Origin: Turritopsis dohrnii
Taxonomy: Eukaryota; Cnidaria; Hydrozoa; Anthoathecata; Oceaniidae
Direction: 5' to 3'
NCBI GenBank assembly: GCA_027922465.2
Contig: BQMF02000491.1
Location: 1-64,000, forward strand
DNA: 64,000 nt
Positions 1-24,593 of the stretch are shown in pieces (position 1 is the first letter of the stretch; each line of letters opens with the position of its first letter). A program made the position numbers and the translations under genes. Below the pieces are notes generated by a model. The model did no database searches and was not told the origin of the DNA. It was given only the letters and a program-made list of their open reading frames with translations.

Positions 1-2804
1 CAGTGAAGAAGATCCAGTAGATTTACCTATCTCTAACTTAACCTTAGCTTCTGAAGGCATCTAGGATACAAAAAATAATTTTTTTCGAGAAAAAATCACT
101 TCATGTGGCTAAAATGATGGTTGGCAGACGTGTGTAGCAAAAAATTATAAAAACATATGAAAATAACTATTTAATCACCAAAATGTGGCTATTTTATGGT
201 AAATTAAAATAGAATTTCAGTATAGTAGCCATTTTCTTTAGGCCCATATGACTTTGTTTTTGGAGGAAATGACAATATCAGGTTTTTCTTTTATCACACA
301 AGGATGGACGTTTGACGTTGCTGCGGAATGGTTGTCACTCACAATGATTATTGCAAGTAAAATGAATTTGAAAAGTTAGATTTCTTTGTTCGGTAAAGCA
401 ACATTTTTTATATAGTCGTACGATTTTGGGCTGCTGCATCTTCTGTGAGGGAAATTATTAACATGGCTGGATTCTCCACTTAGTGAGTTATTCAAAAATG
501 TACCTATATTGATATTTTCTCCGTTTAGTGCTTTGAGTTTTGCAAATACATGTTTCTTAAAGTAATTGCGTTACGTTACCGAATTTTTGAAATATTTTTG
601 CAATTCCGCCATAAAATTTAAGGAAGCCCTTCAGTCGTTCTTTGCTTTACTGCTTGAGCTTACCTAAAATCTAGTTTGACATTTGCTTCTTGGGAACAGT
701 TAATAAAAGCACTTTTAAAAGAGGTTGCAATACCGAACTATACAAAGTTACTTTACCGAACAAAAATAAAAGTATGTAAGTCCTGATTCACTATGTAACA
801 CAGTACGTTTTTATGTTCCTTTCCGACTGCATTCAAATGTTCTGTAACAAAAACTTAAAAGAAAAAAATGCAATTGTAATAACGGACAAATTATTAATTT
901 TGTTAAGGAAACAGGATTAAGGGGATGCAATCAAGACAAGACCTAACAAAGATTACAGCCATATATTTACAGGGACAAATCAAAATCGCATACTTTTTAC
1001 TGATTGTATAACAGGATATCTTTGAAATAAATGAAACTACAGAACACATCCTAAGAATTCGTCCATTTTAAAGTACTTTTTATAAAGACAAATTTTATAA
1101 GAAAAATGAAGCTGAAATTGATCGTGTTATTTTGATATTTACGGCTGCGGTTCTGAAGGGAATGATTCTCTCTATGCACTTAACAAAAGCGAAGGGTGTA
1201 ATGCTTCTGATGATGTCACGTAATTGGTCCTCATTTTTTCTCATTTATTAGGAGATTTTGCAATTCCCTATAGTGAACGTTTTGGTTGGTAAAACAACAA
1301 TATGTAGGATATTTAGAATGTTTTTTTTGGCATTATGATTTTGGAATTGAGACTAAAAACATGGTTGGATTTTACATTCAACCTGCCGTTCAAAAGGCAT
1401 AACTTAATAAGAGTTCGGAGTAAAAGAAGCCTGAGTGTGGTAAATATACCTTATAGTATAATATTTAAATGAGCGACAATACTGAATTTCTTAAATCACT
1501 CAATTTTGTCAATAAACTACATAAAATTGTTAGAAGTTTCCTTTCTTTCGATAACAAATCGTTTCTAAGTCATTGGTTGACAAATGGCATTTGGGAAATA
1601 GCTTGTGAGTCCTTTTAGAAATAGTGTTACAATACCGAACTATTCAAGGTTTCATAACTGAACAGAATGTCATATTCTTACAATTTTACTGGCACATTTA
1701 AGGCAAAAATACAAAAATAACTTAGAAATTTAGCGAGAAGAACTTTTTGCGGAAGAAATTTTCGCGAATCGACGAAAATTTAAACGTTTTGCGGAATAGT
1801 TTCTTCCCTTAAGGTATTCTTAGTATTAGTAATTGTATGACTATGATGGCAACTTCGAATAAATAGTCCGATGTTTATTTTGACGCTTCTCAAAATGCCC
1901 GATGTAGTGAACGTATTGAACAATTATTTTCTGATCTGTAATCAGTCATACGATTATATGAGAAATAGCCTCCGCGAAAAACTGGGGAAAATTTTGAGTT
2001 TTATGTGCTATAAATGATTGGTATTTCAAAAATCAATAAGAGACAGGTAGCACGAAACAGTAGCAAGCAAAACAGTTCATGATTATGGTACACAGAGCTA
2101 TAAATATGTTTGGGAAGTTGCTAAATTAATCAGTTCTTTTTACTCAGCTGATTTCCTCTATAAGTGAATGTGATGGTTTATCGATTATTGAAGAATCTGC
2201 TTAAATGTCATAATTGTTCAGACAAGACTGCTAAGACCTCATTTCTAAAAATATCTATCGTAACGCAGTATTGAACTTCATATGATAAGGGCCCGAAGGT
2301 ACTATAATGTGCAAGGGAATCCACTGCAATAATTTAACGATGAAGCATAGTTCTTCTGTTCAAAAAAGCCAGGTACAATATTTTCAGTCGGAACTTGATT
2401 GTAAATGACACTCCAAACTATGAAACGTTACATGAATAACGTTGTAACGTTAAAAAAACAAAGAAATAAAAACAAAAAAATAAAAATAAAAATTGTTAAA
2501 GTAACGTATTAACAAAAGAAAAACGTTATATATCTATACGATTAACGGTTTGTTAGCAAAATCCCCTGGAATGTTAAAATATCGAAAAAACTCGAGAGAA
2601 AAGTCCCCTACCTATCACAAAGAATAAAAAACAGGAGTAGGAGTAAAAAACAACAACAAAAACTACACTGATAGTAACATAAATGCTGGAAATTTTGGAT
2701 TCCCCTCTGCTTTGCTCTCATTTAAGAGAAAAATATAAGACCTTAACATAAAAGGAAAAACATACAACCAATAGGTTAAGTTGCAATGAAAATAATGAAA
2801 ATCA
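1..2804. other. non-coding, no gene recognised
   Basis: No convincing reading frame on either strand. The text is AT-rich with A-runs near 2450-2520. Two stretches look like an old direct duplication: about 230-760 and about 1130-1660 share, in the same order, a GGTAAA-CAACA segment, an ACATGG-TGGATT segment and a segment ending in CAATACCGAACTAT (near 731 and 1630). The same TACCGAAC words recur in the tandem repeat at 12.9 kb. The duplication is judged by eye. Confidence 0.4.
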
Positions 2805-3540
2805 TTACGTGCGATTAAGCCGGTACCGCTGCCTTTCGTATCGCACTTTAGCTACAATTTGGTTATCGGTAAATTGCGCCAATCGTTGACGAGCAGTGAA
2901 ATGGTTGTCCAGAACTTTTTTTACGCCACTGAGTGTGACAGACCCACTACCACGGACTTCTCGCTTGAACAGTTCTTTAATAAACACGCTTTGATCTGGA
3001 TGGAACGAAACTTTATTTGATGCAATGGAAGCCTGTTCAGCTTGGATCACCTGTTCTTCTTTCTTTTCCCCTTCAAATCTTCCTGCTCTTTTCAGCTGAT
3101 GAAGTTTGTTATATATTTTTTTTGATGAAATTCCTTTCAATAGTTGATTTGTGGAAGCAAGATTATAAAAAAAGTGATCAACAATTTTTAAATGAACGTT
3201 ATGAAAGAAACAACCACACCCTTTCAAGCCTCCGTAGAAATTTTGGCATATTAGTTTTTTGTTCATTGATTAATACAATTTGCCACATTTAAAACCAAAT
3301 TAAGCATCAAAACAAAGCAGACTAGATTAAACATACCTGACGTATTAAAGGCATATGCCACGTTTCTAAACAGTATCACCGAAAAGATCAATAAGTGCCT
3401 CCTCTTCTTCCATCAACCAAACATGCCTACGACTTTCAATGGCATCATCCACCACATAATCTTGGTCACTATCTTTTTCGAATTCATCATCCTCCTCATT
3501 CGATGCTGTTTTTTCAATATCTCCCATTCTTCGCTTTTTA
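2805..3540 (-). CDS. acidic segment and basic C-terminal exon of the recombinase gene
   Basis: After a one-base shift near 3550 the minus strand is open from about 3560 to 3380, with an acidic run and VWLMEEEEALIDLF. A candidate donor (G then GTGATA at 3379) and an acceptor (TTGAAAG at 3134) join it in phase to 3133-2805. That exon encodes a SVFIKELF...LSGVKKVL...VRYERQR helical, Myb-like tail ending at TAA 2805. Comparable C-terminal modules follow this type of recombinase in other animals (from memory of the family). The join is inferred. Confidence 0.42.
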
Positions 3541-6500
3541 TCCGGCCTCTCTTCGTTGCATCACTATGAATAAAACTTCATCTACTTTTTCAGAAGTTGC
3601 AGCACATTCTTTCCTCAAACGTGTCAAATGATAAAACCGGGATCCGGTTTGTGGGTTGTGCTTCATCAACTGTCCTAATTCTTCTTTCATGTCTGGCCGC
3701 TCATCATAAAAAAAGGTGAGCAGACTCTTTCGCACAAGTGTTGCACTGATGTTCTTACTTCTATCATCGTTAGGAAGGCACTTCAAAAAGAACGAATTTA
3801 ATTGTGTGCTGACCCCACCAGATTCAAGTTGACAACCAGACCATGTGATGAACATGAATGACGACTTTTTTCCAGGCACAGCGTTCCTTATGATGTTCAC
3901 GTAAACATCACATGCTTCCTTCACCTTTCTTAACACTATTTGACATGGCCCATATCTTCTGCTGTCTTGTGTCAACACAACGTATTGACCAGTCGGACTA
4001 TATTTACCATTTCTGTACTCTAACGTCATATTGGCTACAGCACCAGATCGAGATATGTTGATTATGATCAAGTTGAAAAACAAGCTATCCCGTACATTGG
4101 TAAACGAATCACGAGTAACCGTATAGCCATCGGCTCTATTCTCATATGTACTTTTCATGATCATTTTCATGACTTCCAAGTAAAATGGACTTTTCAAAAC
4201 AGCACAAAACTCTTCTTTAGAGATAAGATTATCCCCATCTTTCATCATAACATCATATTGCCTAAGCTCTTCTTCAGGCCTTAACGCTGAACGCCATTTT
4301 GCCACTTCATCGCGACAAACTCTAAGTTGGTCCACAGTCACCTGGTTAACTGGCAAGGTATTGAGTACGTTAGGGGTAACCATGGATCGAATGAGGAAAT
4401 CAAAGAAATGACCCAATGTCAAAAGGTATGATCTGATAGTTCCTGGTTCATATTTCTTCACTAAAGCATGCTTCTTAATCCACAGACTATCAACAGATTG
4501 AAGATCGCAAAAATTGGTATAATGCTGACACCCTGACGTACAGATAACAGTTGCCATTCTTCTCAACTGACTAGCCTCGTTACTTGCATTTTTAATGTCT
4601 TTTCTACCACCTGAATGACTCATAAGGTATTGCTTGAAAACCTCTAAATATCTGCTAAATTCTGGCTCTTGTACTTCTTCTACTGCACCTTCCGTGTCAT
4701 CAATTCTTGGTATATCCATTTCAGAAGTTATAGATGCTTCAGAATCAGAACTTTCATCCTCTTCATTTGACCTCCCATACTTTTGGCTTTTTATCGGTCT
4801 CTTCATTGGCCATTTTACTTGAATAATCTCTTCCTCGCAAGGAATTTTTGCTGCCAACGTAGAGCGGTATCTTTCTGGATCCTTGTTCAGAAAATGTGGA
4901 CTTCTAGCTAAATGATCATGTATCCTTTTGGTGACAACTGCACATATGGGACAAATGTAAGATCGATAGGACCTGGGTTTCTTGTTCTCAGCCTCATCAG
5001 CAACTCTATCGCTCCTTTCCTTCCGAATGTTAAAGATGCCTGTAATAGAAAATAATGTCACATTAGAAAAAAATGCCAAACCGTGGTTTCAAGTTATGTA
5101 GAAAGTAACCTTGATTTAGAAATTAATAATAATTAAGCCGAAGAATAAAGAATGAAAAAGACATATATTGAAACCACGGTGCAGCATTGATTTCTACTGT
5201 GACATTATTTTCTATTACAGGCATCTTTAACATACGGAAGGAAAAGAGCGATAGAGTTGCTGATGAGGCTGAGAACAAGAAACCCAGGTCCTAACGATCT
5301 TATCGAGCTTACGAAACTACGACGGCAACGTGGACGACGACGTGAGGCAAACAAAAGATTCACTTTACTCCGTAGATTTGCTTTAGAATGGAAGCCATTT
5401 CACACTATACTATTGGGAAATGTTTTTAATTTTACTAATATCATTATTAGATTTGCACGTTCTACACACAACGTGAAAAGTAATATTTTGAAGTCGTACC
5501 GAAAACGAAGACGTGAGAATAGCAGTACTTCCGATAAATTTTCCTCGGTTCCTTCATGGTTCTGCCTCTCAAAGTTCAGAAAACAAACTTCAAAGACATT
5601 ATAAATAAACTTCTTAACACAAGTGTATAGTTTCTGCTCGTTTGTGATTCATAGAAGATGAATATCTTTTACGTCGTCGTCCACGTTGCCGTCGTACTTT
5701 CGTAAGTTCCCTATTATTTTCTATTACATGCCTCGAGCTTTCTTGGCTCTGATAGGACTCCATTTATGGACGACACGAAGGTGCTGTGGAAGATCAATGA
5801 CTTCCTTTTTACATCCCTGTTCAATACAAGCTATTCGATTACGGCAAAATCTTTTAGCAATCTTTTCCGTTGTATGTTTTTTAACGTCACAGATTTTTCT
5901 TCAGAAACGGTTTGTTTCGCCAAATTTTCTTTCCATGCTGCAAATACCTGGGAGTAAAAAAGATCATATAATTTCACCATCTATCAAGCTAGTACCTTAG
6001 TATAGTAAAACTATCTATTTATCTTATGATAGTAAAACAATTTCGGAATAAACATTTGAAACTACAGCTTTCGGAGTTGGACTAAAGACATTATCAATAC
6101 CCACTATTTCAAAACCAGTATATTCTTTGTTGTGACTTTTATCCAATTAAGAAATACAAACGTTCCACGAAAAAACTTACGTATTCCGAGAAACTTCACA
6201 AGAAATCTGTGGTAAATCCTATGATAACGAAAAAGAAGAAAATTATTGATAATAATTTGCTTCGTATTAAAGGTATACCAAACGACAAAATTTCATAGTC
6301 TCCACAAAATTAAAAACTACGGCGAAGTATGTGCAACCATATAAGATAGAAATCGTGCATCATCGTTATACTGTGAAATATCTAAAAAGTAACAACAATA
6401 ATAATGACAACAATATCAAAACACAAATATACAAAAAAGAATAGACCCTTAGTCTCTCTTTGTATATGCCCATAACTTAATAAAACTTTTCTATTTCATA

Positions 6501-9500
6501 CCTATAAAAATATGGGCTATCGAATGATCTTGGTATGGGATAAAGAAGCATCGCTGTATTGTCACTGCTGCTAAGTCTTTTCTTATTGTTCTCCTATTCT
6601 GAAAAAGTCAATATATTTTGTGGCTCTTAGCAAAATATTTCTGTCGAAATATTTTTCTGTCGAAATATATTTCTGTCGAACTATTTTGGGCCCTACCACC
6701 ACGTCAAGGTGGCCACAATTCGGTAGAGTTCAATTAATTATTTAGTTGAATAGCTTACCTTAGTTAGTTTCCTGTGTTTTTCTTGAAACTGACTGCTTTT
6801 TTTTTCAATCCAGATGACATTTAGTTCGGTAAATTAGAGCACTGTGAGACTGAAGGTATAACTTTAGGGATACGAAGTTTAAATACAACAAAATATGCAG
6901 CGCATGCTTTTATAAATGGTTTGGTATACCTTCAACTATCAGTAAGATAAAAGCAACCATTATACCTCTACTTGTTGTTCCTTAACCTCTACTTCTGTTT
7001 CTTCAGTATCAATGTCATCCAATAATTGGTTACTGCTCTTAAGGATAATATGTTATGTTATATTCACAAAACATAGCATGCTAAAAATATCAGCCAATAA
7101 TTTGTATCGTGCATTAACATACCGAGTTATCTTCCTTTCGACAAACATGGTCGTCGTAGCAATCCACGCAGAAAATTTTACCAATTTTATTGTCAGCACA
7201 ATCGAAATATTCGCACAGCTTAATGAGATGACAATTCGTCTGGCAAATACCGCAAATAAACTGAAAAATGCAAAACATGTGTTACTTTATGGGCAGAAAA
7301 TTGCCGGTAGATATTCACAGAATTTATTTCATATATAAATGACAGATCTTTCAGCTGCCAACTACAAAAATTTCTTTCGCGAGAATCTCTACTCATGCAA
7401 CATTCTGTTCTTAAGGTAGGTAAGATATTTACAAAAATCTGAAGCTGCGTGTACAGAAAAGAGTTACCTCAATCATTTCCATGGTTTCATTCTGGTGTTC
7501 GCCATCATTTTCCATTTTATCATTTGGCTGGCTAGGCTCTTTTGCAGTCTGTTTCTGCTTGCTTTCAACACCATTGAAAGTTTCTGCATCATTGGCTGGA
7601 CGAGTATCATTTAATTCAAAATCTATTAACTAAAATGAAACACAAAACATCCAGTTTTAGTATTAAGAATAACTGTTTTATTTGTAAACATAAAGTACAT
7701 TATTTTTGAGTTGAAACATTAAGAACGTATTATAACAAGAAGTATACTATTGGTATAATATACTGTCAATACCTGGGCTTGAATAGCTGAATTTTGACTA
7801 TCAGTTCCGGATTCTTCAGAACTTGCTTTTTTTAACTGCTCAGCTGTAAAAGAAAACTCTGAAATTCTATTCATCAATAATAATGACTGGACACTATTTC
7901 ATTACTAAATTAAGAGTTGATCACTTACTCGTTTTGTTAGTAAACGGCCTTTTGTATTGGGACTGAAATATACATGCATTTCATTTTATTAACAAAAAAA
8001 TCTGAGATAACAGAAAACAAGTAACAGTCTTACCAGCTTCCTCCAACTCAGTCCAGATGTATCACCATAGTTATACCTAGAAAACAAATTCATTTAGGAA
8101 TGGTTTATGCATATTTTAAAAACAAGATATTAACACTTTATATATTTAGAAAACTTTACATACCTTAATTCCGCACCCTTCGGAATAGCTTTCGTGGCAT
8201 AAAGGCAAAGATTTTCAATCATATGTCTTTATTTTCATTTGACAATTAGCAAACTGTTTACTACTGTCATTCACATACTTCCCCAAGCGTGTCTCTAAAG
8301 TACCATCCAAACTAAATAAAATTAAAATTTGATTAGCAGAGCAAAAATTATTATGAAATTATATACCTTCATAATAATATAATTTATCGATGTACTATAT
8401 AGTACATTGATAAACAAAATCATGTTTAGTTAGAATTTCTTTCTTATTTTATAGTTTAGTGTGCTTTACTCACCACAAAGACTCTCCGTTGAATTCAAAG
8501 AAATAAAGAAAGCAGCCTGCCCCTTCATCTTTGTACATCCTCTCTTTCTCTATTCCATCATTCTCTGATAGAACCACTCCAGGATATTCAAGAAGAAATT
8601 CACTTTCTTCTATATTTCTTGCAGCAAACACACCAAAACCTCCACAAGAAAAGTGTTCATATATTTACCAGAATGATAACGGAGTTCAGCAGTTGATTAA
8701 AAAATCAATGAAACCTTACCAATAAAATCATCAATGTACTCTTTATAAAAATGATCAGAATCCATACCACTCATGCATTGTTGTTTGGCAGTGTCAATTT
8801 TCACATCCTTCTGATAATGTAACAAGCAATATATTTTGTTGATACAATTAAAAACACAATGCTAATAAATGAAATGTTTCTATTTTTAAAAAAACAAAAT
8901 CACTTACTTTCCTTGTTGAATATCGACTACCACTCATAAACTAAAAATAAATAAAAATACAATTACCATTAATGAAAATACTAGGTTAAGTCAAATACAA
9001 CACAATCACTGTTAAAATTACTTTTATTTCTTGCTTTCCCAACAATTCTTTACCTGAAACATTATGATTTACTTCAGTATTTACAAAACTTAAAGCGAAT
9101 TTAATGTCAGTAAAATTAAACATAATTACTCAAACCTTCATTATCTTTCTTCATTGACATAACCTTTTCCATGAATGTTTTGCCTATCAAGACACATTAA
9201 GGAATGATCATATTATGTCTTTTATTTCAGACATAAGGTTCAACTTTTTCCTTTTTTATTATGGAATGCTTTACAAAAGAAGCCCCAAGGCAAATGAAGG
9301 GTACATACGTCTTTCATCACTAACCACAGTTAACTCTCGCACTAATTTCTTGAATGAACAGTGTTTTACTACATAAGGAATTCATAAGAAATTCAATGAA
9401 AATAACAAAAATCTATAATAAATATACAAAGAATAGAAGAATAAACTAAAAAATAGAAGTATATTAATACCTTCACTAACTGTTTCAGTATCACAATTTT

Positions 9501-11424
9501 TTTCGCTGAAAGATATTTAAAGTTTCATTGGAGGTACAAGTTTCAACAAATTCAACACATAATAGCAGGAGACTTACATGTTTTCGATGTATGTTGATAA
9601 ATAGAATTCTGCCTGAAAAATTATTTAACATCATACATACTAATAACAATAACACTCTTTTCATTTCAAAGACAAAGTGGAAGCTGTAGTACAAAAGGAG
9701 GAAGAGGGTGAACCTTAGTGATATCAAATTTTATTAGACCTGTGTACTTATGAAAGCCTAAAACTAAATTTCTGTATGCATATTCTAAGATTTTTATGCT
9801 AAAAAAAACACAAACCTGCAAATTCCTAAAGCCATAGCAAATAAGGAAATGAGTGCCTCTGCAACCAAGACTCTCTCAATGTACTGCTTTTTCTGTTGGA
9901 AAATTTATCATGTTATAAACATCAAATATCAATATTTATATCAGAATATTTAGCTATCAGAAAACTAAATAATACCAGAGTTTTTGTCACAGGATTGTCC
10001 TTAAGTTCTTTTTCCAACATAAAATACTGATATTCCGGCACAAGGCTGAATAGTTCTACATCATTTAATTCTCCTACAGTTAGAACAAAAATTTATTCCT
10101 TTAGCCAATTGAAAGAGAAAAAGCTTAGCAAAATTTTTGGGAACACTCATCAATCCTTTACTTCTTTCCTGTACACTCCTATGAAACTGCTTATGACGCC
10201 AGCTAAAGTACTAAAAATATGAAAAAAGTGTAACAAAAATTCTCAATATCAATCTTCAAAATAGAACATTACTCAACAAATAAAATGTCTCACATTTTTG
10301 GACACTATTGTCTTGATTGAAGCAGAATCAGCCACAGTTTTAATAAGATCATCTGTGATTTTAGAAATACCTAAATGCATGTTTTCAGATATGACTTAAA
10401 ATAAGTGGTCTACAAAATATCAACAGCAAGTAGATAGTCATTGTTTATCTTAATTCCAGTTTAATCAAAAGTCAAGTTTCTCAAGAGAAGATATTTCCAA
10501 GAACAATTAATTTCCCAAATTGAAATGGCAATTTTTAAGAAATTGGGAAACATCAAACTTCCAACCAGTTAATATGAAAATGTTTTCTCTTGATATAATA
10601 ATGGTTTGTTCCGTAAAGTCAACAACCTGTAACCAAGGCTTGTCACTGTCGTTATACAAATTATTCAGCTAAAAAACAAAACAAAGAAATTTGATAAAGT
10701 GTATAGTAAATTTGAAAAATGTAATAAAAATAACGTAGCCATATTAATTCATTAATAATAAAAACATATTTATTTAAACAAGTAGAAAAAGCTTATTGAA
10801 CTAAAGGTTCATCATCAATAAAGAGGTTAAAAAAGAAAATTCATTTTCACCTTCTATGATAAGTTCCTCTCTTATGTCATCTTTTGAATGCTTGACTATG
10901 AGAGAAGGAGAGAACTACTACTTTACCAAGAACAAAACAATAACCAAAATAATTGCATTGTATGAAAATAATACTGGTATGGAGACCATAATGGAAAGGG
11001 GAGAAGATGATGAGGTAGTGGTAGCTGTAGGTACAAGCAATAAGTAGGACAAAAAGGTACACAGAACTAGGTACATACAACTATAACATAGAATCACTAT
11101 CTATAAAATACATTGTAACATTTAATCTTTTCAAAAATGTTACCAATATTTCAACTCTCAGTACAGAAAAAATGCTTACTTTTAGCCATAAGTTTATATA
11201 TATATAAATATATATATACAAATTTAATGAATTTGAAACAACACAACTAGCATTATAAATTTCAAAGTCTTACCAGCAAAGCCATCCACACAAACTTTAC
11301 AGACAATCAAACCATCACTATTTAATCCTGCATGACATTCCTGACAAATTATACTTTTACACCAAGCACATGATGAAACTGCTACTTCATCACAGCAAGA
11401 ATCTTTACAAACCATACAATCCAT
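2805..11424 (-). CDS. multi-exon Cys-rich / SET / tyrosine-recombinase gene (about 26 exons, three lesions)
   Basis: Inferred exons, each with AG before and GT after (one GC donor) and phases that agree: 11424-11274, 10895-10851, 10370-10294, 10210-10162, 10073-9976, 9892-9816, 9612-9578, 9505-9471, 9348-9309, 9183-9136, 9053-9022, 8940-8908, 8810-8720, 8639-8474, 8311-8164, 8076-8034, 7962-7929, 7843-7773, 7629-7468, 7260-7123, 7037-6966, 6593-6502, 6218-6181, 5947-5732, 5039-3380, 3133-2805. Predicted length is near 1,250 residues. Lesions: one extra base in the SET exon near 8215, an in-frame TGA at 5903-5901, and a one-base shift near 3550. A SET domain fused to a Crypton-like tyrosine recombinase suggests a transposon-borne or transposon-derived gene. 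Whether it is recently dead or carries sequencing errors cannot be told here. The weakest joins are the 9348 acceptor, the GC donor at 5731 and the last intron. Confidence 0.62.
3538..5039 (-). CDS. Crypton-like tyrosine recombinase domain exon
   Basis: The reading frame is open from 5079 to 3538, but the true exon should start at 5039, after the acceptor TTCTATTACAG; the first 13 residues from the ATG at 5079 are intronic. Counting from that ATG: a CPIC...H...H finger (43-62), an acidic spacer (105-140), a SAM-like helical core domain (140-310), then the catalytic part with the first Arg at 344 (SRSGAVAN), Arg 450 (TLVRKS), His 474 (MKHN) and Tyr 483 (RFYHL). The His before the second Arg (HxxR) is replaced. 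Known role: DNA cleavage and joining through a 3'-phosphotyrosine. A one-base shift near 3550 separates this frame from a downstream acidic segment. Confidence 0.72.
4955..5305. repeat. inverted partial copy of the recombinase exon start
   Basis: The plus strand at 5199-5300 repeats, with few differences, the minus-strand intron/exon junction at 5060-4960: TATTTTCTATTACAG then GCATCTTTAACAT and on through the GAGGCTGAGAACAAG part. The unique loop is about 5100-5165, and GAAACCACGG/CCGTGGTTTC mark the inner arms. A third copy of the ATTATTTTCTATTACA stretch lies at 5710-5726. It is a head-to-head duplication of the exon start. Its splice acceptor is intact but it leads nowhere. Confidence 0.75.
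5308..5706. mobile_element. 399-bp TIR element (MITE-like) inside the intron
   Basis: The 36-bp ends are inverted repeats with one mismatch: 5308-5343 begins CTTACGAAACTACGACGG and 5671-5706 ends CCGTCGTACTTTCGTAAG. No target-site duplication is obvious. It lies in the intron between exons 5947-5732 and 5039-3380, next to the inverted exon copy, so the two rearrangements may be linked. Confidence 0.6.
5732..6593 (-). CDS. exons with C2H2-like finger before the recombinase domain
   Basis: Exons 6593-6502, 6218-6181 and 5947-5732. The last encodes CIEQGC followed about 12 residues later by HLRVVH, a C-x4-C-H-x4-H finger typical of transposon-encoded proteins, then a Lys/Arg tail. The frame from 6218-6181 runs into it in phase but meets one TGA at 5903-5901 (possibly CGA decay). 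The best donor that keeps phase is GC rather than GT (CGAG then GCATGT at 5731), so this would be a GC-AG intron. Confidence 0.5.
7123..7260 (-). CDS. Cys/His-rich exon downstream of SET domain
   Basis: This 138-bp phase 0-0 exon encodes 46 residues with CGICQ, a C-H pair, CADN and CVDCYDDHVC. It looks like a second zinc-binding module of RING or treble-clef type. Flanking splice sites are strong (TTTTTCAG before, GTATGT after). Preceding exons (7843-7468) are acidic and low-complexity, and the following exon (7037-6966) is Glu-rich, suggesting flexible spacers. Confidence 0.6.
8034..8940 (-). CDS. SET-domain (lysine methyltransferase-like) exons
   Basis: Five exons (8940-8908, 8810-8720, 8639-8474, 8311-8164, 8076-8034) encode a SET domain in canonical order: a GFGVFAARNI start, LLEYPGVV, a central FYFEF-like strand, LGKYVND followed by NCQMK (the N-H-S region, here N-D-S), and KGAELRYNYGD at the C-terminal knot. 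The pattern is closest to the KMT5A/Set8-like group. Known role of the family: mono-methylation of lysine using S-adenosylmethionine. The 8311-8164 exon is one base too long: a T-containing stretch near 8215 shifts from the KTYD frame to the NLCLYAT frame, which would truncate the domain unless it is a sequencing error. Confidence 0.75.
9022..10895 (-). CDS. linker exons between N-terminal finger and SET domain
   Basis: Ten short exons (32-98 bp) with introns of about 80 to 480 bp. Most have good GTAAG/GTATG-type donors and YAG acceptors. The translated linker is mixed, partly helical and rich in Lys and Glu, with no domain I recognise. At the exon near 9348 a nearer consensus acceptor exists (tgtag at 9371), but it puts a TAA in frame with the upstream exons. 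The CATTCAAG acceptor keeps the frame open. This is the least certain part of the exon chain. Confidence 0.5.
11274..11424 (-). CDS. first coding exon: N-terminal Cys-rich (treble-clef-like) domain
   Basis: The ATG at 11424 opens a 50-residue segment with paired cysteines: CMVC, CC, CAWC, CQEC and CKVC. This spacing suggests a zinc-binding RING/PHD-like or B-box-like fold. It ends in a GTAAG donor in phase 1 and joins the small exon 10895-10851. The start is chosen because no acceptor or upstream in-frame extension is visible, and a Harbinger relic begins about 80 bp upstream. The exact family is not recognised. Confidence 0.6.
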
Positions 11425-11502
11425 GATGCTACAGTAATTAAACTATTTCAACAAACGAAAAAAAATCATCAAATGCATTATAAATATCTCAATATGATAT
11501 GA
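11425..11502. other. presumed 5' region of the SET/recombinase gene
   Basis: Only 78 bp separate the first ATG (minus, 11424) from the Harbinger relic. I see no TATA box I would trust. A 5' UTR intron or promoter could lie inside or beyond the relic. Confidence 0.3.
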
Positions 11503-12212
11503 GCCAGTGATACACGAGTCGATTAATAGCTTTCGACTCTTATCGAACTCGTAGTGTGTTTATTAAAAAGTTGCTATATGAAAGGTGATACACGTAAGCA
11601 GTTTTTCCTTTCAACACAATGTCTTCAGACAGCGAGGATGAGATGCAGCTGCTGCTACTTGAAATGTAGCCTCAATTAAAGAAATCAGAAACGAAAGCGC
11701 AAAACATGGACAAAAAATTGGCTAATAAAATGTGTATTTGGTGTTTACAATTCTTTTGAATTTCAACTTGAAAGCAAGGCTGACTATTATAACTTTTTGA
11801 GGATGAGCAAGGCTTTTGATTGCTTTTGCTTCTCATTACGTTTTTTATATATCTGTCTCTGATTTAACATTCCATAACCTCCTTTCTTTGTATCATTCGT
11901 TGATAAAATATTCAGTAAATTCAGTTTTATTTGCCATGTTTTATTTTTCTTCTACGTTTTAATACTATGTTTTATTCGTGACATTCTCATTTTCCTTCAA
12001 AATCTAATTTTGCGCATTTGCTGTACAAAAACAAAGCGTTTTGAATGGGTAGAAACAAGAAATAAATTGTTAAATTTCTAACATGTTGGAAATTTTTTTT
12101 GTCGAAAGCAACTTGAAAAAACAACTTTTTTCGGCAATTTTTCAGTGATACACTAAGCGATTTGTCCAAAGCAATTAGTCGAAAGCAATTAATCAACTCA
12201 CGTATCACCGGC
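11503..12212 (+). mobile_element. PIF/Harbinger relic with TIRs
   Basis: The left end (11503, GCCAGTGATACACGAG...) and right end (to 12212, reverse complement GCCGGTGATACGTGAG...) form TIRs of about 35 bp that include GATTAAT and GCTTTCGAC. Inside, from 11619 on the plus strand, ATGTCTTCAGACAGCGAGG starts an acidic N-terminus with a stop, and a shifted frame at 11695-11835 reads KRKTW...FEFQLESKADYYNFLRMS. This matches the N-terminus of Harbinger transposases (the family pattern is a basic patch followed by FLRMS). The rest of the transposase is missing. Confidence 0.7.
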
Positions 12213-12870
12213 TTTAGCCATCTATATATTATATTTAATTATGATTTGACAGGACCTTTTAGTATTTCCCAACTTTGAAAAAATATTGACTTATATACAT
12301 ATTTTTTCAAAGAAATAAAGGATATAACAAATAATTTAACTTCCATACTTGTCCTTAAGGAAGACTTGTAAGGTATATACCTTATAACATAACATAACAA
12401 GATTGAGTAAAACTAAAAGTCTAATCATGGGTTGTCATTATAAAAAAAAGCAAACATCTAAAAGGAGCCACTTCAATATTTCTGTCCATTTCCCTCAAAG
12501 AAAGAATAAGTAACTTATATGAGTAGTTTAAATTGAAAACATAGGAACGGGAGTCTTCATCAGATTATTTCGGATCATCATAGCCTTTTAGTTCTGCGTT
12601 TTGTGGGGCTGCGCAGAAGAAGAGAAGATACAGAGATCTTGAAACACTTTTTAATTTAAAGAAAAAAAGCTCGTTCACAAATAAAATAAAGTGTTTGCGT
12701 ATAATTACCAGTTTCCTCTTATCTATTTTTTAAAATTCACTATATTTTCTATAGAATGTAAATAAAAAACTATACACATTTACCTCTTAAAGTTGAACCA
12801 ACGTCCAGCGCACAACCTCCACTTAACATTAATGGCGGATGAATGTTTTGCAAAAACTACCGGCAACCGA
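12213..12870. other. non-coding
   Basis: Nothing coding recognised. AT-rich, with a slightly GC-richer patch near 12590-12620 (TGTGGGGCTGCGCAG). Confidence 0.35.
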
Positions 12871-13020
12871 TACCATCCAAGTTGCATTACCGAACAATCA
12901 TGTTACATTAACGAACATCGAGGTTGCAATACCGAACAGCGAAGTTGCAATACCGAATACTAAGTTGCATTACCGAACAATGGTTGCAAAACCGAACAAA
13001 ATTAAGTTGCATTACCGAAA
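12870..13020. repeat. short tandem repeat, core GTTGCATTACCGAAC
   Basis: Seven imperfect copies of a 15-22-bp unit built on GTTGCA(A/T)TACCGAAC run from about 12877 to 13019. The array ends where the first small gene of the polymerase element begins, so it may mark that element's terminus. Related single words occur near 731, 750 and 1630. Confidence 0.7.
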
Positions 13021-13413
13021 ATAAATATGCTCATCATCATCGTCATCATCATCATCATTATCATCATTATCATTGTCGTCTGTCAAAGGCAATGGTGAGT
13101 CACATGCGGCTTGTGTATCTAAATCAGAATCAGATGATTGATCATCATCATCATAATAGTTGGCACAACAGCAACTCGTATTCCAGTGAGTGTGCACGAT
13201 ACTATCCAATCGGCTATGATTAGTAAACTTTTCAGTTTTGTCGATTTTGTCCATCATATGTTTGATATTATCAACCCATTCGCCATCTTCAATTATTTTT
13301 TTACATTTTTCGCATTTATAACTGCTCTGCTTTAATTTTTCGTAACCATAAAAGACTAAATAGTTGAGGATCTCTCTTTTCCTCTGATGAACCGAATAAA
13401 ATGTATTACCCAT
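13012..13413 (-). CDS. small Cys-containing protein with Asp-rich tail, unknown function
   Basis: 133 residues. Residues about 33-38 hold CEKC, followed by C pairs further on. The last 30 residues are an Asp/Asn run encoded by the (TCA/TCG)n stretch at 13026-13080. It lies just inside the left repeat of the element, downstream of the polymerase C-terminus and in the same direction. The acidic tail could be a simple-sequence expansion. No family recognised. Confidence 0.4.
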   Translation of the reverse strand: MGNTFYSVHQRKREILNYLVFYGYEKLKQSSYKCEKCKKIIEDGEWVDNIKHMMDKIDKTEKFTNHSRLDSIVHTHWNTSCCCANYYDDDDQSSDSDLDTQAACDSPLPLTDDNDNDDNDDDDDDDDEHIYFR

Positions 13414-13567: not shown

Positions 13568-14406
13568 TTACACGTTTGAATGCTTTAAAATGTCAATCGT
13601 ATATACCGAATTATGACCTGTAAGATTACAATACAAAAGTTGATTGATTAAATTTAGGCGTGGATCGTTCTTTATAATGTCATTTTCACATTTTAATATT
13701 TCGTCCTCGTATTGTTTAATGTATTGTTCAGCATCGTCAACTATACAAACATCATGTTTACGTTTTTGTTTGTTAAATTTAAGCGAAACATAAGTGTCAT
13801 ATCTAGAATCACTGCAAAATTCATAAAACGGATATAAAAGACGATGACCGTGTGGCAAAGTGGTGATACCGTTTTGTGAGAATAAGAAATTCTTATCGGC
13901 CATGTTGCAAAATATCTTCTTTCGAAAACTGATTTTCTTCATATCGTTCTTGATAAATTGAAGTCGGTTCGTTACAACAGTTGCGATATTACTAACAGAA
14001 TTGCAAGCACGAACGTCGTCAACAGTGTAGATTCGAGAAAGATAACTTTTCTGATCCAGTGTACGCACTTCGTTACCACCAATTGCTGAATCATCACGTT
14101 TCGTTTTATTACCTTTGTTTTTGAAAACAAAGGCATCGTCAGACATTGAGATGTGATATTCCTTCGGTTGCGTAGCAACAACCAATTTTGTGTATGTGTA
14201 TTGTTCTTTGCCATTATTCTTTTTGGATTTGTTAAATGCATATTGAAATGCATATAACCCAATCTTATTCCGCAATGATTCTGCTCTTATTCCAAATCTG
14301 TCAAAGAAAGCATCAGACGTATCTATGCAACCGGGACATTCTAAACATATTTGTAAGATCAGCCATTCGTGTAAATCTTTCTCGGATACACTAGGTTTTC
14401 CGTGAT
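13568..14406 (-). pseudogene. protein-primed DNA polymerase B, C-terminal part
   Basis: This continues the polymerase after the inserted transposon. Open from about 14400 to TAA at 13568. It contains SVSEKDLHEWL, a FDRFGIR segment, KIGLYAFQ (the position of the G-K-F/Y-E element after motif C in this family) and, near the end, ADKNFLF followed by GITTLPHGH. That last segment matches the conserved C-terminal DKRY...GI-T-HGH region of Polinton-type polymerases. This part alone has no internal stop. Confidence 0.65.
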
Positions 14407-14535
14407 TACATTAAGAACCAAAAATTTCGGCGGGACAAAATTTCAGCGAAAAGTGTCGCCGAAAATTTGTCCGCCGAAATAAGGGACTTCGCCGAAAATT
14501 TTTCCCGCCGAAATTTTTGGATTTTATCCTTTTTT

Positions 14536-15066
14536 TTAATCGATGCAAATGACGTGATCTTCGTCATCAATAACGAAATCTTCATCATCTGCATCTTCCA
14601 TTGTGTACTCCATGCTTCGAGGAATACCATCTTTTTCGATATCAAAGGGTTCTTCAAAAGTGTCTCCGTAATTTTTTTCTATAATTTCCCTTAATCTTTG
14701 CAGGAAACGACGATCTTTGTCGGGAATGGAAAATGTAACCTTTAACAAAATCTCCAAACCCCCTTTTGGAATCGGTGATGGTCTGTATTTTGATTCGTAC
14801 ACCTTTCCTTCAGCTTTTCCACCTAGCTCAAGAAAAAAACAGATTGCTCTTGAAATCTCCCGCGGAACAGGACCGACGGTTTCAGGGACAACTTTCCCCT
14901 TGATTGTTTTCTTCCATGCCACAGAATACGGGTCATGGCTCAATGCTTTTTTATCACACTCTTTTTTAGCGTGTAGATACTCCCCTACTTCAGGTTTCTT
15001 CCAGACAGTTTTTCCGTAATAGTGCCAACCTCTACTGGCAATCTTTGCACTGTACATCGATTCCAT
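14536..15066 (-). CDS. HIRAN-like domain protein, cargo of the transposon
   Basis: 176 residues, uninterrupted. It shows the HIRAN-type order: RGWHYYGKTVWKP near the start, HDPYSVAWKK, VGPVPREISRAICFFL (the V-G-VPR-S core), GGKAEGKV, RPSPIPKGGLEILL, then an acidic tail with DDED. HIRAN domains bind 3' DNA ends in host helicases such as HLTF (known). Stand-alone copies of this style are common in cnidarian transposons (from memory). No catalytic domain is attached. It lies between the TIRs and runs opposite to the transposase relic. Confidence 0.65.
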   Translation of the reverse strand: MESMYSAKIASRGWHYYGKTVWKKPEVGEYLHAKKECDKKALSHDPYSVAWKKTIKGKVVPETVGPVPREISRAICFFLELGGKAEGKVYESKYRPSPIPKGGLEILLKVTFSIPDKDRRFLQRLREIIEKNYGDTFEEPFDIEKDGIPRSMEYTMEDADDEDFVIDDEDHVICID

Positions 15067-15437
15067 TTCGTACGCCTGTCTTTCGCCTTAACTACAGATA
15101 AGAGTTCTGATCGTTTGATGTTACCATAGTCAAAAGATGTTACGTGCAACTTAGTGAGTGTTGTGATTGTTGCATCATAAGAACGTTGAAAGTTTTTGAA
15201 AATTCGAATTTCGAATTCGAATGCCATTTTTTCTTAAAGTTTGGGCTACACGACCCACTTAAAAATTGTCCCTAAATCCTTGAGACGAAATGACAGATTC
15301 AGTCAGTTTTTAAATAATAATTAAACTTCCAAGAAATTACAAATCAATGGTCCTCTTTAAATTGTTTCAAAATCATTAGCAATGAAAAGCCTGAGTGTGC
15401 CATTGATTACTCTCAGTGTAAATAGACCCCCTACCTT

Positions 15438-15542
15438 CGCAACAACGAAGAAATGGTCGTCAAATCGTTCGAAATGGCTGGTATCAAGGAAGCTTTGGAA
15501 ATCGAGTTGCCTTCCGAAAATCCGTTTGAAGATTTATTGTAA
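15438..15542 (+). pseudogene. transposase C-terminal relic (pogo/Tigger-like)
   Basis: The plus strand reads RNNEEMVVKSFEMAGI then a Glu-rich tail ending PFEDLL and TAA at 15540-15542. Pogo/Tigger DDE transposases characteristically end with a helix followed by SF--CGI and an acidic tail (family knowledge). The DDE core is not present, so the element depends on another source of transposase. Confidence 0.5.
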
Positions 15543-16010
15543 AGAAAAGAAAAGATAAATAATCGTGTTATTCAAAACTTATTTGTCTAACATCATATTT
15601 CTAACAAAAGCATGTTTTGATTTAATATAACACCGTAAAGCCTATAAACCGTAAACACTAAACTTCGAAAAATTTAATAAACGCCCCGAAGCATTACGGT
15701 ATTACACTTGAAACATTTTCTTTAACGCAAGTTTTTGCATTTCCCTGTCGTTAAAATGCTTAAAATGTGGATAGTCCGAAATTAAATTATAAATAAATCC
15801 TGCCGAAATTTTTTCTGCCGAAGTGACCAAAATCTCGCCGAAATTAATTCCGCCGAAGTATTTCCGCCGAAAAAAAAGTAGCCGAAATTTTTGGTTCTTA
15901 ATGTATGATCTACAAGTGTATGAAATTGGAAACTGCATGAATCGGTATCTGTAAGAATTAGATATGGAAAAATTGCAAGCACATTTAATGTTTGCATTTC
16001 TTTTTTCATT

Positions 16011-16092
16011 CTAAAAAAAAAGAAAAACAAAATAAATAAAACAAACTAAACAAAAAAATAAAACAAACTAAGTAAGTAAAATATTATCACAC
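16011..16092 (-). other. 82-bp GT-AG intron in polymerase gene, before motif C
   Basis: Donor GTGTGATAAT at 16092 and acceptor TTCTTTTTTTTTAG ending at 16011. The flanking phases agree (phase 2), linking KMCHKPSE to the MKKEMQTLNV...LTDTDS segment. The frame between is interrupted. Confidence 0.6.
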
Positions 16093-16522
16093 CTTTCAGA
16101 CGGTTTGTGACACATTTTCACGATTTTATGCATCATACTAGTAATAGAAATCTTTGCCACTGACAACACAACACCACCAACAAATCGTGTACCAGCATCG
16201 GGAAACTGCTTCTTCTCGGATACTATGCCTTGGATACTTCCCACCACATTTCCTGTGATCTATCTCGTTATAACCGTTAAATGAAGGTGACATAATCGCT
16301 TTAGAAAGAACTTCCGTGCAGTTTGGAAGTTTACTTGTTCGCTTTTTGTTTCTTTTTTGGTTTGCAATTCGTTGCTTCAAGATTCCAGCCTGTCTTTCAA
16401 ACTTCTCTTCTACCATTTCCATCATTCCCATTCGAGCTGTTTCCGATAGAGTAGGATCGTCCAGTAACATATGTTTTTCTGTGATATGTTGCTCTTCCAA
16501 TTTTCTTAACGCATCATCGAGA

Positions 16523-16594
16523 CTAAAAAACAAAAAAATATTAACCATTATATATTGTTGAAGACGAATTAAAAAAAAATAAAGTGGTTTTTAC
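16523..16594 (-). other. 72-bp GT-AG intron in polymerase gene
   Basis: On the minus strand AG is followed by GTAAAAACC and the segment ends in TTTTTTGTTTTTTAG. Both sides are in matching phase 2 (VNPFV joins to DDALRKLEE). The interior is AT-rich with stops. Confidence 0.6.
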
Positions 16595-17620
16595 CTAACA
16601 AAAGGATTAACCATAAAATTATTAAAATTGTTGCCAGTATTTAATTCGTCAAATTGAACGCTTTCTTTTTCTCGATCGATCAATGGCGTTAATTTCGGCT
16701 TGTCACAGCGGATCATCCATGCACCATAGCATTTATTGTTCATGTCTTTATACATTTGACTTTCTTTGTTCGTCTTTGAATTCTGACGTAAAACTTGATT
16801 ACCGATAACATAATCCCTTAAAAAAGCTGATTGATAATACGAAATTGTGTGATAGACATTAGTGACAGTATAGCCCATTACCTTTACCATGTACTGAACG
16901 GTTTGAATAAACATAGAAATTCTAAAAACGTCTCCACATTTCATGTGTGTTTTCTTACTCGAAGTTTTATCATTATTATGTAATTGTTGCAAAAGTGACA
17001 CTTTGTTACCACTTACCACACTTCTATCAAAACAGGGTACAAAAAATTGATTGTATATATCTCCGATATGACCTTTTGGTGGGGCTTTTAAAGATACTTC
17101 AGACAAATAACCGTATTTTGCTGTTTTCATATCTTAAGACTCTACTTATTCTAAATATTCGTTTAAGGTGAAATTCCTATCTTGGAAATTACCTACAGGT
17201 AATGGATAAGTCATAGCATTACCGTATTGATTATTTTCGTCCATCATTAAGATATTTGAATAAACACTACAATTTACACCGTTATAATCAAGTCGTAAAC
17301 AACCTCTATCTATATCGCTTTGTTTTAAAATACCGTATTGAAACAAATAATCTAAAATGTATCGTGTGTCAAAAGCCAATCTCAATGACGTTTGCGAAAA
17401 TCCACCAAACGTTGCATTTTCAAACATGTTTATTTTATGTGTATCTGGCAAGCGTTTCAAAAGAGCTTTCGAATTTAATAATGCAGCAGCTTTGGAAAAT
17501 GTAGTCATAGAGGTAAATAAATGTGGATTATATTTAAATAGTATTTGTAATTTTCGAAAATAATCAGAAGCTATGACCATCAATAAAATGACGTCACCAG
17601 CATTGTACACACGATCTGTA

Positions 17621-17776
17621 TATGCATCTACCGGTTTCAAACCAGCTAATCTTTACGGTCAAAACCTTGTTAAATTTGTTTGGGAGGGTGAAGGCCAAGT
17701 GATGTCTCGTTCTTCCAAACGCTTTTAACAGAGTTTTCACGGAGAAGTTTGATGGTTTGAAACCGGTAGATGCATA
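17621..17776. repeat. 24-bp perfect inverted repeat with 108-bp loop
   Basis: TATGCATCTACCGGTTTC... at 17621-17644 is exactly mirrored at 17753-17776. It interrupts the polymerase between the exonuclease and palm regions, and one arm is read as the MKPVDAY start of the next open segment. It could be a tiny TIR element or a local inverted duplication. No target duplication is evident. Confidence 0.7.
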
Positions 17777-18539
17777 CACTCCGATTGAGATCGTTCATAA
17801 TTTGCATGTTTAAGGTTTTCCAAAGATATTGAACTTGACACTATATTTCATCATCGACAAATTCGAATTTTAATTTGTTCGTAAACAATTATTTTGATGG
17901 TAAAAAGGGGTGATTTAATTCGTCACCGCTAATAAAGTAATCGTACGGAATGACACCTTTGTCAATTATAATAGATAGTAATTCTTTTTCTTGTTCTTCG
18001 GTTAACTTTGCATAACTTTTAGAAAATAATTCATCGTCAAAAAAATATCGTCAAACCATTCCATTATTTGTGCAACGTGATTAGCATCTTTATTTTTGGA
18101 AAAATTAGACAAAGATGTGGCAAAGAATTTTAAAGTATCTTTAAAGTGGAAATCACCTACAACTACATCTGTCACGTTATACATACTTCCACCTAAAAAT
18201 TTTATTTCAGTCATATTAAACATTTGCAAGTCTAAATATTTTGCAATAAATTTAATATCAAAACGGCTAGAATTATGTGCGTACACTGGTATACGGCAAT
18301 TGATAACGTCCTCCTTATAATTCGAAAAATCTTGTAACCTTTTATTGCAGATATCGTGTGCATAACCGTAAATAGTACGTGTAACGTGATCGTGATGAAT
18401 AACGACATTGTATTGTTTTGCATTATCCAAAATTTTAGTACTGTTTTTAAATAAGCCAATAACTGAACACGTATCTAACCAAAATATAGAATTAGAAACT
18501 TTCATAAGGAAATCAAATTGCCAATTCTCGTAGAATCTT

Positions 18540-18595
18540 GTCACACTCAATATGGAAATATGTATATATGTATATATATGTATATATAGCATTAC
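18540..18595. repeat. (TATATATG)n microsatellite
   Basis: An alternating TATATATGTA tract of about 40 bp near 18555-18590 separates the polymerase from the upstream small gene and probably replaced part of the polymerase N-terminus. Confidence 0.6.
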
Positions 18596-19299
18596 TAATA
18601 TCCTAAGACATCAAAAATATCGAAAAAATCCAAGCCAATATATTCTAGTAATGACGCAACATATTGAGAATCAGAATAGCCTCGACAATAATCGTTTCTT
18701 TTTATTTGATTTTCCACATACCTGATAAAATTGGAAAGACAACAATAACGCTTTGTTAAAAGGCAAACAATTGTATTCAGTGTAACATTGAAATTGGCAT
18801 TATTTACAGAATCTATTAATCTCGAAAAATCTTCTATTCTGCTGAATACCAACTGTTTCATTTTAAAACAAACTAAATCGAAATTGTGACAAAGATCTCC
18901 AGTCACATCACAATTTGTAATGCCAAAATCACATATGCAACATTTTGTTATTTGATGTTGTTCGTAGTAATCTTTCTTTTCTTTTATCGTTAATTGATTG
19001 TTACATATAGCTACTTCATGCTTAAAAAACCTTTTAATTGCAAAACCTGTCAAAGCTATTTGACTTATTATAACTGTTGACAATGACAACGATTTTCTTT
19101 CGTACGCATCTAAAGTACGTGCCATGTTCTTAAAAGATTTGTTTGTTATATAACGATAAATATAGTCTGGTAAGAAAGACATGTCTGCTAATTTCAATTT
19201 GTTATCAATACACGATTTGTACCAAATAAATGGTTTTAAATTCAAAGCCGGATGAAAAATAACACCAACACAAAAAGACATGACTTTCATTGCCAACAT
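18595..19299 (-). CDS. 234-residue protein, unknown function
   Basis: An uninterrupted frame just upstream of the polymerase, same direction. It has clustered Cys residues near residues 118-145 (CCICDFGITNC, then a C-H pair), hydrophobic helices and an acidic end (DFFDIFDVLGY). Position suggests either an N-terminal extension of the polymerase (terminal-protein-like) or a separate small gene. No family recognised. Confidence 0.45.
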   Translation of the reverse strand: MLAMKVMSFCVGVIFHPALNLKPFIWYKSCIDNKLKLADMSFLPDYIYRYITNKSFKNMARTLDAYERKSLSLSTVIISQIALTGFAIKRFFKHEVAICNNQLTIKEKKDYYEQHQITKCCICDFGITNCDVTGDLCHNFDLVCFKMKQLVFSRIEDFSRLIDSVNNANFNVTLNTIVCLLTKRYCCLSNFIRYVENQIKRNDYCRGYSDSQYVASLLEYIGLDFFDIFDVLGY

Positions 19300-19312
19300 G
19301 TTTTCGTAATGT

Positions 19313-19726: not shown

Positions 19727-19896
19727 ATCATTTCTGACATTTATTAGGAAGATTGGCTAAGATTGAGTGAAAAAAATATGAAAAAAACAAGTCATTATTA
19801 TTATAAATTTATTTTTTTAAAATATATATACAATCATATCAGACACAATAGAAGAGTTCGTTGTATAAACAAATATATCTTTTACAACACAATTAT

Positions 19897-20250: not shown

Positions 20251-20289
20251 TATTTAGATTCTAAATTAACAACAAGCTATATATATTAT

Positions 20290-24590: not shown

Positions 24591-24593
24591 ATA

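Follow-up and report, generated by a model that had tools for sequence, protein, structure and literature searches.

A predicted spliced gene joining a KMT5A-like SET domain to a tyrosine recombinase in a multi-copy element of Turritopsis dohrnii

The window studied here, the first 64,000 nucleotides (forward strand) of contig BQMF02000491.1 (C491) in assembly GCA_027922465.2 of the hydrozoan Turritopsis dohrnii, opens inside a transposable element. The copy lies on the minus strand at positions 1-13,030 and is truncated by the contig start, window base 1 being base 1 of C491. It is a broken copy of a multi-copy element, in which a SET domain derived from KMT5A and a tyrosine recombinase (YR) are predicted to share the same spliced gene. 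The modules of the protein follow one another in the order Cys-rich, KMT5A-like SET, second Cys-rich, two C2H2-like fingers, YR, and a SANT-like tail. A sequence-only reading of the window had placed the gene between 2805 and 11424. That interval holds its core, but the element reaches further, to its 5' end at 13,030 and, on the 3' side, beyond base 1. Stretches on contig C170 match window 5225-490 at 97% and window 1107-1 at 90%. The coordinates are collected in Table 1.

Taken alone, the window sequence could not prove a single gene. Its recombinase exon is open for about 500 codons, from 5039 to about 3538, and most of the longer exons are supported by codon-usage scores from a model trained on this YR exon and on the frame of a long interspersed element (LINE), both from the window. 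Several short exons are not supported, such as the drafts at 9612, 9505, 6788 and 6206, and because short exons score at background (p=0.41 for 9612-9578 and p=0.68 for 6206-6181), exon chaining by itself was rejected as proof. The frame is broken inside the SET exon 8311-8164 (148 nt, against 153 nt in the sibling copy L013), inside the finger exon 5947-5732, and at the C-terminal end.

The case for one gene comes from the sibling copies. In L013, which belongs to clade B and lies on contig C18, 20 exons and 19 GT-AG introns yield a single stop-free frame of 1,181 codons, in a model whose last few codons may be intron and which may leave a further last exon outside. The exon borders of the window and of L013 mostly coincide over exons 2-19, at ~67% DNA identity. 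The SET occupies residues 267-377 of the L013 product (Pfam E=1.3e-16), and the exon of the second Cys-rich module is joined, with the phase kept, to the exon that holds finger and recombinase. Draft exons 21-24 of the window (6788-6181) are not conserved in L013, and they were dropped. On this DNA evidence, SET and recombinase are predicted to lie in one spliced gene of the element. The sequence-only reading had joined about 26 window exons in phase: the SET, the other modules and their linkage hold, with 20 exons in one frame in L013, but the in-phase joining of all window exons does not, since the window frame breaks. The Cys-rich modules, finger and recombinase exon that it described are present, both by eye and by conservation.

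Finger and recombinase form one exon in clade B, and in clade A they are split by an insertion that has inverted ends TGTAATAGAAAATAAT and GGCA flanks and measures about 186 nt in L009 and 692 nt in the window. Its removal as a GC-AG intron preserves the frame. It looks like an intron gain, with a small transposon inserted within another transposon's gene. In the window, the foldback ends of this minus-strand insertion read TGTAATAG and its inverted counterpart, with GGCA at both sides; the window and C16 carry the longer version of ~690 nt.

Table 1. Features of the element copy in the window, listed from its 5' side
Feature	Position	Strand	Remark
SET-YR transposable element copy, clade A	1..13030	-	5' end 13030; 3' end lost beyond contig start; 5' 87-mer and C170 matches
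Imperfect (GAT)n tract = insertion site, abuts 5' end	13031..13073	.	pure run 13043-13057
Subterminal array, 7x TTCGGTAWTGCAAC (<=2 mismatches), spacing ~21 nt	12881..13019	-	candidate recombinase/finger binding sites
Exon 1: start codon and N-terminal Cys-rich module	11274..11424	-	
Exon 2	10294..10370	-	
Exon 3, "SWRH" module	10162..10210	-	donor corrected by comparison with L013
Exon 4	9976..10073	-	exons 3-4 jointly dN/dS 0.08
Exon 5	9816..9892	-	77 nt vs 84 in L013; breaks frame in window copy
Exon 6	9578..9612	-	frame corrected via L013
Exon 7	9471..9505	-	frame corrected via L013
Exon 8	9309..9368	-	acceptor corrected via L013
Exon 9	9136..9183	-	
Exon 10	9022..9053	-	
Exon 11	8908..8940	-	
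Exon 12, pre-SET	8720..8810	-	
Exon 13, SET domain first half	8474..8639	-	Pfam and PDB matches
Exon 14, SET domain second half with LGKYVNDS	8164..8311	-	frame broken in window; open in L009, L013
Exon 15, SET domain end (RYNYGD)	8034..8076	-	
Exon 16	7929..7962	-	
Exon 17	7773..7843	-	
Exon 18, variable linker	7468..7629	-	exons 16-18 dN/dS 0.55
Exon 19, second Cys-rich module	7123..7260	-	
Finger exon, first C2H2-like finger	5732..5947	-	frame broken in window; open in L009
GC-AG intron from foldback insertion, GGCA copies flanking	5040..5731	-	absent in clade B
Recombinase exon: second finger, YR domain, SANT-like segment	3337..5039	-	HKT motif missing; frame broken near 3.55 kb
Last exon, C-terminal tail	2805..3161	-	5' border approximate; matching open reading frame in C170B

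The window's own assembly (435.9 Mb, 891 contigs) holds at least 88 matches to the window recombinase. Among 20 stretches of 9.9 kb each from this genome, ten (L009-L015, L018, L022 and L023) carry SET, YR and further modules in the order of the window, not every module being found in each. Five of them (L010, L013, L014, L018 and L023) form clade B and are 96-99% alike over most of their aligned length; the three clade-B members with long open YR frames show 70% identity to the window YR. The other ten have no SET within the 9.9-kb stretch: these are L016, L017, L019, L020 and L021, and the distant YR families of L024-L028. Two of the former group, on C66 and C235, have a SET 14.7 and 15.9 kb upstream. 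Fingers, but by eye no SET, are seen in the single-frame products of L024-L027, and L026 has a zf-DBF domain as well. In L024 (G000:C589:1000-10900), the distant-family YR lies in an open frame reported as 2,908 amino acids, largely made of tandem repeats of ~45 amino acids.

The association was then counted in a genome-wide cross-match of two SET searches with two YR searches. The YR list, drawn from 88 and 115 rows, holds 138 places, or 137 after merging; the SET list (129 and 52 entries) holds 172 after merging. Second pieces and already-listed places were left out of both, and a SET search with a KMT5A query was not added. A SET lies upstream on the same strand, within 16 kb, at 41 of the 137 YR places, against 0.43 expected per class. 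It lies downstream on the same strand at two, one being a tandem neighbor, and on the opposite strand at none. These counts are lower bounds, as the searches score best candidates only and the SET matches are "at least" numbers; on C25, two YR places are assigned to one SET. The link also occurs in families whose YR is only ~26% identical to that of the window (C285, C6) and in the C233 family. The latter comprises 13 SET-YR pairs spaced 4.0-4.8 kb (C470, C226, C477, C542, C261, C233, C44, C67, C429, C94, C14, C29 and C318), and a stop-free YR frame of 688 amino acids is found in 12 of the 13. Two blocks covering about 8.8 kb show 98.95% and 99.47% identity between C233 and C44, whose 5' flanks are quite different. 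Such near-identity at sites with different flanks points to recent movement in this family.

The ends of the window's family are sharply defined. In five of five copies read, the 5' end starts with GCATATTTATTTTCGGTAATGCAAC (with small changes in L010) directly after a (GAT)n tract. Ahead of this tract, three of the five share a host repeat, and the window and the tandem copy each have a sequence of their own. The 5' 87-mer (window 13030-12944) has 19 matches, 13 of them nearly full-length at 89% or more, the window included. The 3' end is CTAAGTTGCGTTACCGAACAGGTTTCTACATGG, which holds the 5' motif inverted. Its 80-mer occurs at ten places, all of which were read, and nine run directly into (TGA)n. 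Beyond it lies the same dispersed host repeat in seven of the ten, other sequence on C697, and the next element on C170; the end on C592 is degenerate. Six copies have both ends on one contig and measure 12.4-14.1 kb (C33, C18, C479, C16 and two on C170). The motif TTCGGTAWTGCAAC (<=2 mismatches) occurs 12 times in the window, all 12 inside the element, with seven in the 5' array and the rest at 389-1626.

The joined flanks of the C33 and C18 copies align across (GAT)n to an uninterrupted repeat near window 52.5 kb, which is an empty-site paralogue: the unoccupied site is a paralogous repeat copy rather than the same locus in another individual. This dispersed repeat (window 52440-53000, minus strand) has an internal (GAT)n and hosts seven of the ten 3' ends; the C18 flank suggests that it is itself a foldback repeat. 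Runs of (GAT)5 or longer make up 42 of the 64,000 window bases, and this rarity, together with ends that abut (GAT)n, argues for a target preference. The tract at the 5' end in the window falls in a D-rich reading frame. On C170 (G000:C170:556868-584410), two elements of different clades lie head-to-tail with only (GAT)n between them. Several copies, common ends at different sites and unoccupied sites mark a transposable element. The mobile-element interpretation first raised from the window alone is borne out by the dispersed copies, defined ends, empty-site paralogue, tandem insertion and ~99% identical pair in a related family, and the search for multiple copies with defined ends that had been suggested found them in the species' own genome.

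The residues first read as R344, R450, H474 and Y483 correspond to alignment columns R210, R316, H340 and Y349 (a constant offset of 134), which are invariant in six of six YRs. An HKT motif is kept in five of these six and missing in the window copy; the L013 YR shows R, HKT, R, H and Y. Cryptons are described with catalytic R, H, R and Y; three positions ahead of the second R, the YRs read here have T or N in place of H, so that if the first H of Cryptons is that of HxxR, it is lacking in them. Phage_integrase (PF00589) matches three of the six YRs, the best at 3.9e-5, below the curated cut-off, and Phage_int_SAM_1 matches one YR at its cut-off. The window YR exon has no credible PDB match, and neither does a six-YR profile. 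No relatives of the window YR were found in viral-contig and genome-contig collections. In the C170B element, 12 stop-to-stop frames of at least 80 amino acids were considered: no reverse transcriptase family was found at E up to 1 in the eight scanned, and the other four were judged by eye. The reverse transcriptase/RNase H beside the YR that is the hallmark of DIRS and Ngaro elements was thus not seen there.

The best overall explanation, which we regard as very probable, is that the window holds a broken copy of a multi-copy element whose ends abut (GAT)n tracts and whose spliced gene carries a KMT5A-derived SET together with a tyrosine recombinase. The YR probably moves the element, and a likely sequence of steps can be proposed. 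The recombinase, helped by the fingers, would bind the TTCGGTAWTGCAAC copies arrayed near one end and the inverted motif of the opposite end. It would then excise the element or copy it as a circle, and this circle would be joined into a (GAT)n tract, with the repeats as the crossover region. Joining of a circle at (GAT)n would explain why (GAT)n lies on either side of the element, and would likewise account for the empty-site paralogue and the head-to-tail [B](GAT)n[A] pair.

The window SET matches Pfam PF00856 with E=1.6e-14 and has KMT5A/SETD8 as its best PDB match (7.5e-20), in searches made with pieces carrying XX at the frame break; the KMT5A-like assignment of the first reading therefore stands. 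Where KMT5A reads GRLINHS, the motif in those element SETs that were read is G(K/R)(Y/F)VNDS, with VND for INH and Asp for the His of NHS. VNDS is found in nine of the ten clade-A and clade-B loci scanned (L022 gave no match) and, outside these clades, in L035-L038 (C285, C6, C233 and C685). The DNA pattern LG(K/R)(F/Y)VND occurs at 89 places in the genome (one in a reversed control), and the same pattern with H for D at none. The best canonical KMT5A candidate, on C115, keeps the NHS (GRLLNHS). The Y residues of the RYxY motif are retained in the element SETs. A second VND-type SET lies on the window's contig at G000:C491:76324 (plus strand), 12 kb past the window end.

Selection was estimated from clade A against clade B (L009 and L013, L009 itself being broken elsewhere), as the ratio of nonsynonymous to synonymous substitution rates (dN/dS). 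The SET stands at 0.12 and exons 3-4 at 0.08; the finger has 0.21, the N-terminal Cys module 0.33 and the linker 0.55. The second Cys module gives 0.05 with saturated dS, and for the YR the nonsynonymous proportion pN is 0.16 with saturated pS. By these ratios the SET is under purifying selection. That NDS reflects decay was considered and rejected, the motif being kept across families. The NHS-type motif lines the S-adenosylmethionine (AdoMet) pocket, its His having a role in AdoMet binding, and SET8-type enzymes lose their activity when its R or H is changed. The Asp in its place, found in every element SET read, makes canonical methylation of histone H4 lysine 20 (H4K20) doubtful, and the chromatin-writing activity imagined in the sequence-only reading is not upheld. 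A conserved Asp under purifying selection suggests that the module is used for something other than ordinary H4K20 methylation, and the element SET is perhaps not an ordinary methyltransferase. We tentatively suggest that it is a docking or competing module for the nucleosome or the H4 tail, with its chemistry lost or altered, which would bring the recombinase to chromatin or blunt silencing of the element.

Domain-wide similarity to KMT5A, the kept Y residues and the purifying selection would suit a working methyltransferase that marks element copies or target nucleosomes. With Asp for His both in the element SETs read and in the genome pattern, we think this unlikely, and it is similarly doubtful that the module still methylates anything. 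Less probable still is that the SET is an unselected passenger captured by one lineage. Many YR places have no SET found nearby, and the products of L024-L027 show none; a passenger would hardly account for the difference between dN/dS in the SET and in the linker, or for the retention of one and the same altered motif by families that have diverged deeply.

A domesticated host gene family, in which a SET-recombinase fusion is kept and duplicated as a chromatin regulator, is very improbable, and the domesticated single gene that the sequence-only reading allowed for finds no support in copies that are dispersed with common ends. Purifying selection on the SET and on the exons 3-4 module would fit such a family, as would the KMT5A-like genes (up to 65 in Hydractinia, some of them embryo-activated) interpreted as regulators in the available text of PMC10368294. 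Purifying selection is also expected in an active transposon lineage, and the shared sharp microsatellite ends, empty-site paralogue, tandem insertion, several broken copies, and, in a related family, a pair ~99% identical though its sites are unrelated all speak against domestication. Two neighboring genes, a KMT5A-like one with its end near 6317 and downstream of it a YR element of its own, joined only by the exon chain, are just as improbable: draft exon 6381-6317 does have a stop in the phase of the preceding draft exon, shared by L009, and the stop-bearing part occurs in five clade-A stretches (L009, L011, L012, L015 and L022) at the level of whole-copy DNA identity, but this exon is not conserved in clade B, the L013 exons splice in phase across the supposed boundary, and SET and YR, which pair at 41 places and never on opposite strands, lie inside common ends.

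Several observations weigh against the SET-YR element as we describe it. The gene is predicted here from DNA. With E values up to 0.1 allowed, the SET is the sole Pfam match in the L013 product, so that the domain scan proposed for the spliced product recovered this one domain; the Cys-rich, finger, YR and SANT-like parts were assigned by eye or by alignment. No Pfam integrase match is found for the window, clade-B, L028 and C233 YRs, whose identity rests on alignment to relatives with such matches, and a single-sequence AlphaFold2 model (predicted local distance difference test, pLDDT, 33.7) was unusable. At 96 of the 137 YR places, the searches turned up no SET within 16 kb. Conversely, the YR lists, which are lower bounds, contain no YR in the 16 kb downstream of 59 of the 89 VND places, and at one of these (L037) the plus strand shows nothing resembling a YR frame over about 6 kb. 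The comparison of D and H in the genome pattern is partly built in: canonical GRLINHS does not fit the (F/Y)V part, so the result is an element-type motif without H, and not a genome that lacks NHS-type SETs. The C233 family has neither a (GAT)n tract nor the TTCGGTAWTGCAAC motif at its 5' end, and the insertion model thus covers only the window's family. Finally, C18 and C479 are 98% alike with the upstream flank included, so that some "copies" may be haplotype or segmental duplicates, which would inflate the counts.

Among known systems, the element most resembles Cryptons (CryptonA and CryptonI in the available text of PMC3212892), with a YR as the sole recognized recombinase, no reverse transcriptase found, and, through relatives, a distant relation to phage integrases. 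It differs in its length of ~13 kb, its some 21 exons, its SET, Cys, finger and SANT-like modules, its microsatellite target, and its repeated subterminal motifs. Animal Cryptons are described there as being without a C-terminal domain and with no terminal repeats found (PMC3212892). Short direct repeats bound Cryptons of fungal and oomycete groups and none those of animal groups, while the (GAT)n that flanks the element could be either a direct repeat or the target; a circular double-stranded intermediate has been proposed for Cryptons. In part of another account, a Crypton is a simple element with a single open reading frame for the YR (PMC9406493), whereas the gene here has at least 20 exons with SET, Cys, finger and SANT-like modules. 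Because this structure exceeds a single-frame YR, we file the element as Crypton-like and not as a Crypton: the recombinase is Crypton-like, as in the first reading, but size, gene structure and extra modules go beyond animal Cryptons. Fusion of a Crypton-like YR to other domains is also known from ZMYM2/3/4, QRICH1, WOC and KCTD1; these host genes are described as having lost the catalytic residues (available text of PMC3212892), while among the element copies there are some that keep R, R, H and Y and some that have an open frame.

With KMT5A/SETD8 (Pr-SET7), the element shares the SET sequence at E=7.5e-20. Unlike KMT5A, its SETs lack the NHS motif, precede a recombinase within a single predicted product, and far outnumber the host candidate on C115. 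SETMAR (Metnase) offers a likeness in that a SET domain and a transposon-derived recombinase are found in one protein. In SETMAR, a gene domesticated in primates, that recombinase is a mariner DDE transposase, whereas the SET described here travels on a multi-copy YR element.

In the literature matches listed, no SET domain on a Crypton or YR element appears in titles or the beginnings of abstracts, Repbase Reports and most subscription journals lying outside this scope. A full-text search gave no paper on Crypton together with KMT5A, and in nearly all papers that co-mention SET domain, Crypton and transposon, as far as their accessible parts go, the terms are unrelated. The text of PMC3212892 has no occurrence of "SET domain" or "methyltransferase". 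A male-specific SET-domain gene of gibel carp, "setdm", on extra microchromosomes, is known here by a reference title in PMC9945428 (ref 83).

Another likeness is to expanded KMT5A-like genes: in the available text of PMC10368294, Nematostella has a single one, against up to 65 for Hydractinia, 24 for Hydra and 61 for sea urchin. The SET is N-terminal in most of those of Hydractinia and in most embryo-expressed non-canonical ones of sea urchin, and the longer proteins of both share C-terminal ends (PMC10368294). A mostly N-terminal SET, extra domains in longer proteins, dispersal and high divergence are features of the element as well, a likeness judged from description. That paper treats the genes as host regulators, and its main text has no occurrence of "recombinase" or "integrase". 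By this analogy, what is described as "expanded KMT5A genes" in Hydractinia and sea urchin may be elements of this kind. We lean towards a broader proposal, that a widespread class of animal YR transposons carries a selected, non-canonical KMT5A-type SET with VND, and that the hydrozoan and sea urchin expansions of KMT5A/H4K20 methyltransferases, some transcribed at zygotic genome activation, would be genes of these elements and not host epigenetic regulators.

A recombinase and a selected histone-methyltransferase fold in one protein make it directly testable whether transposons act on host chromatin with enzymes or pseudo-enzymes of their own. They also offer a simple reading of the puzzling KMT5A expansions of cnidarians and sea urchins, with the warning that what is annotated as "SETD8-like" in an animal genome may be a transposon. 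As a eukaryotic YR element with a sharp microsatellite target, its integration can be tested in a reporter.

Other features lie in the rest of the window. Minus-strand broken frames at 13571-20253 include a weak DNA_pol_B_2 match in 18005-18610 (E=8.7e-4, below cut-off), of viral or organellar type. A frame like that of a non-long-terminal-repeat (non-LTR) retrotransposon lies on the plus strand at 24564-26596, with Exo_endo_phos_2 at 5.2e-9 and a frame change near 25142. At 35576-36702, on the minus strand, an integrase core (PF24764, rva_4, 4e-72) adjoins a helix-turn-helix (HTH) frame.

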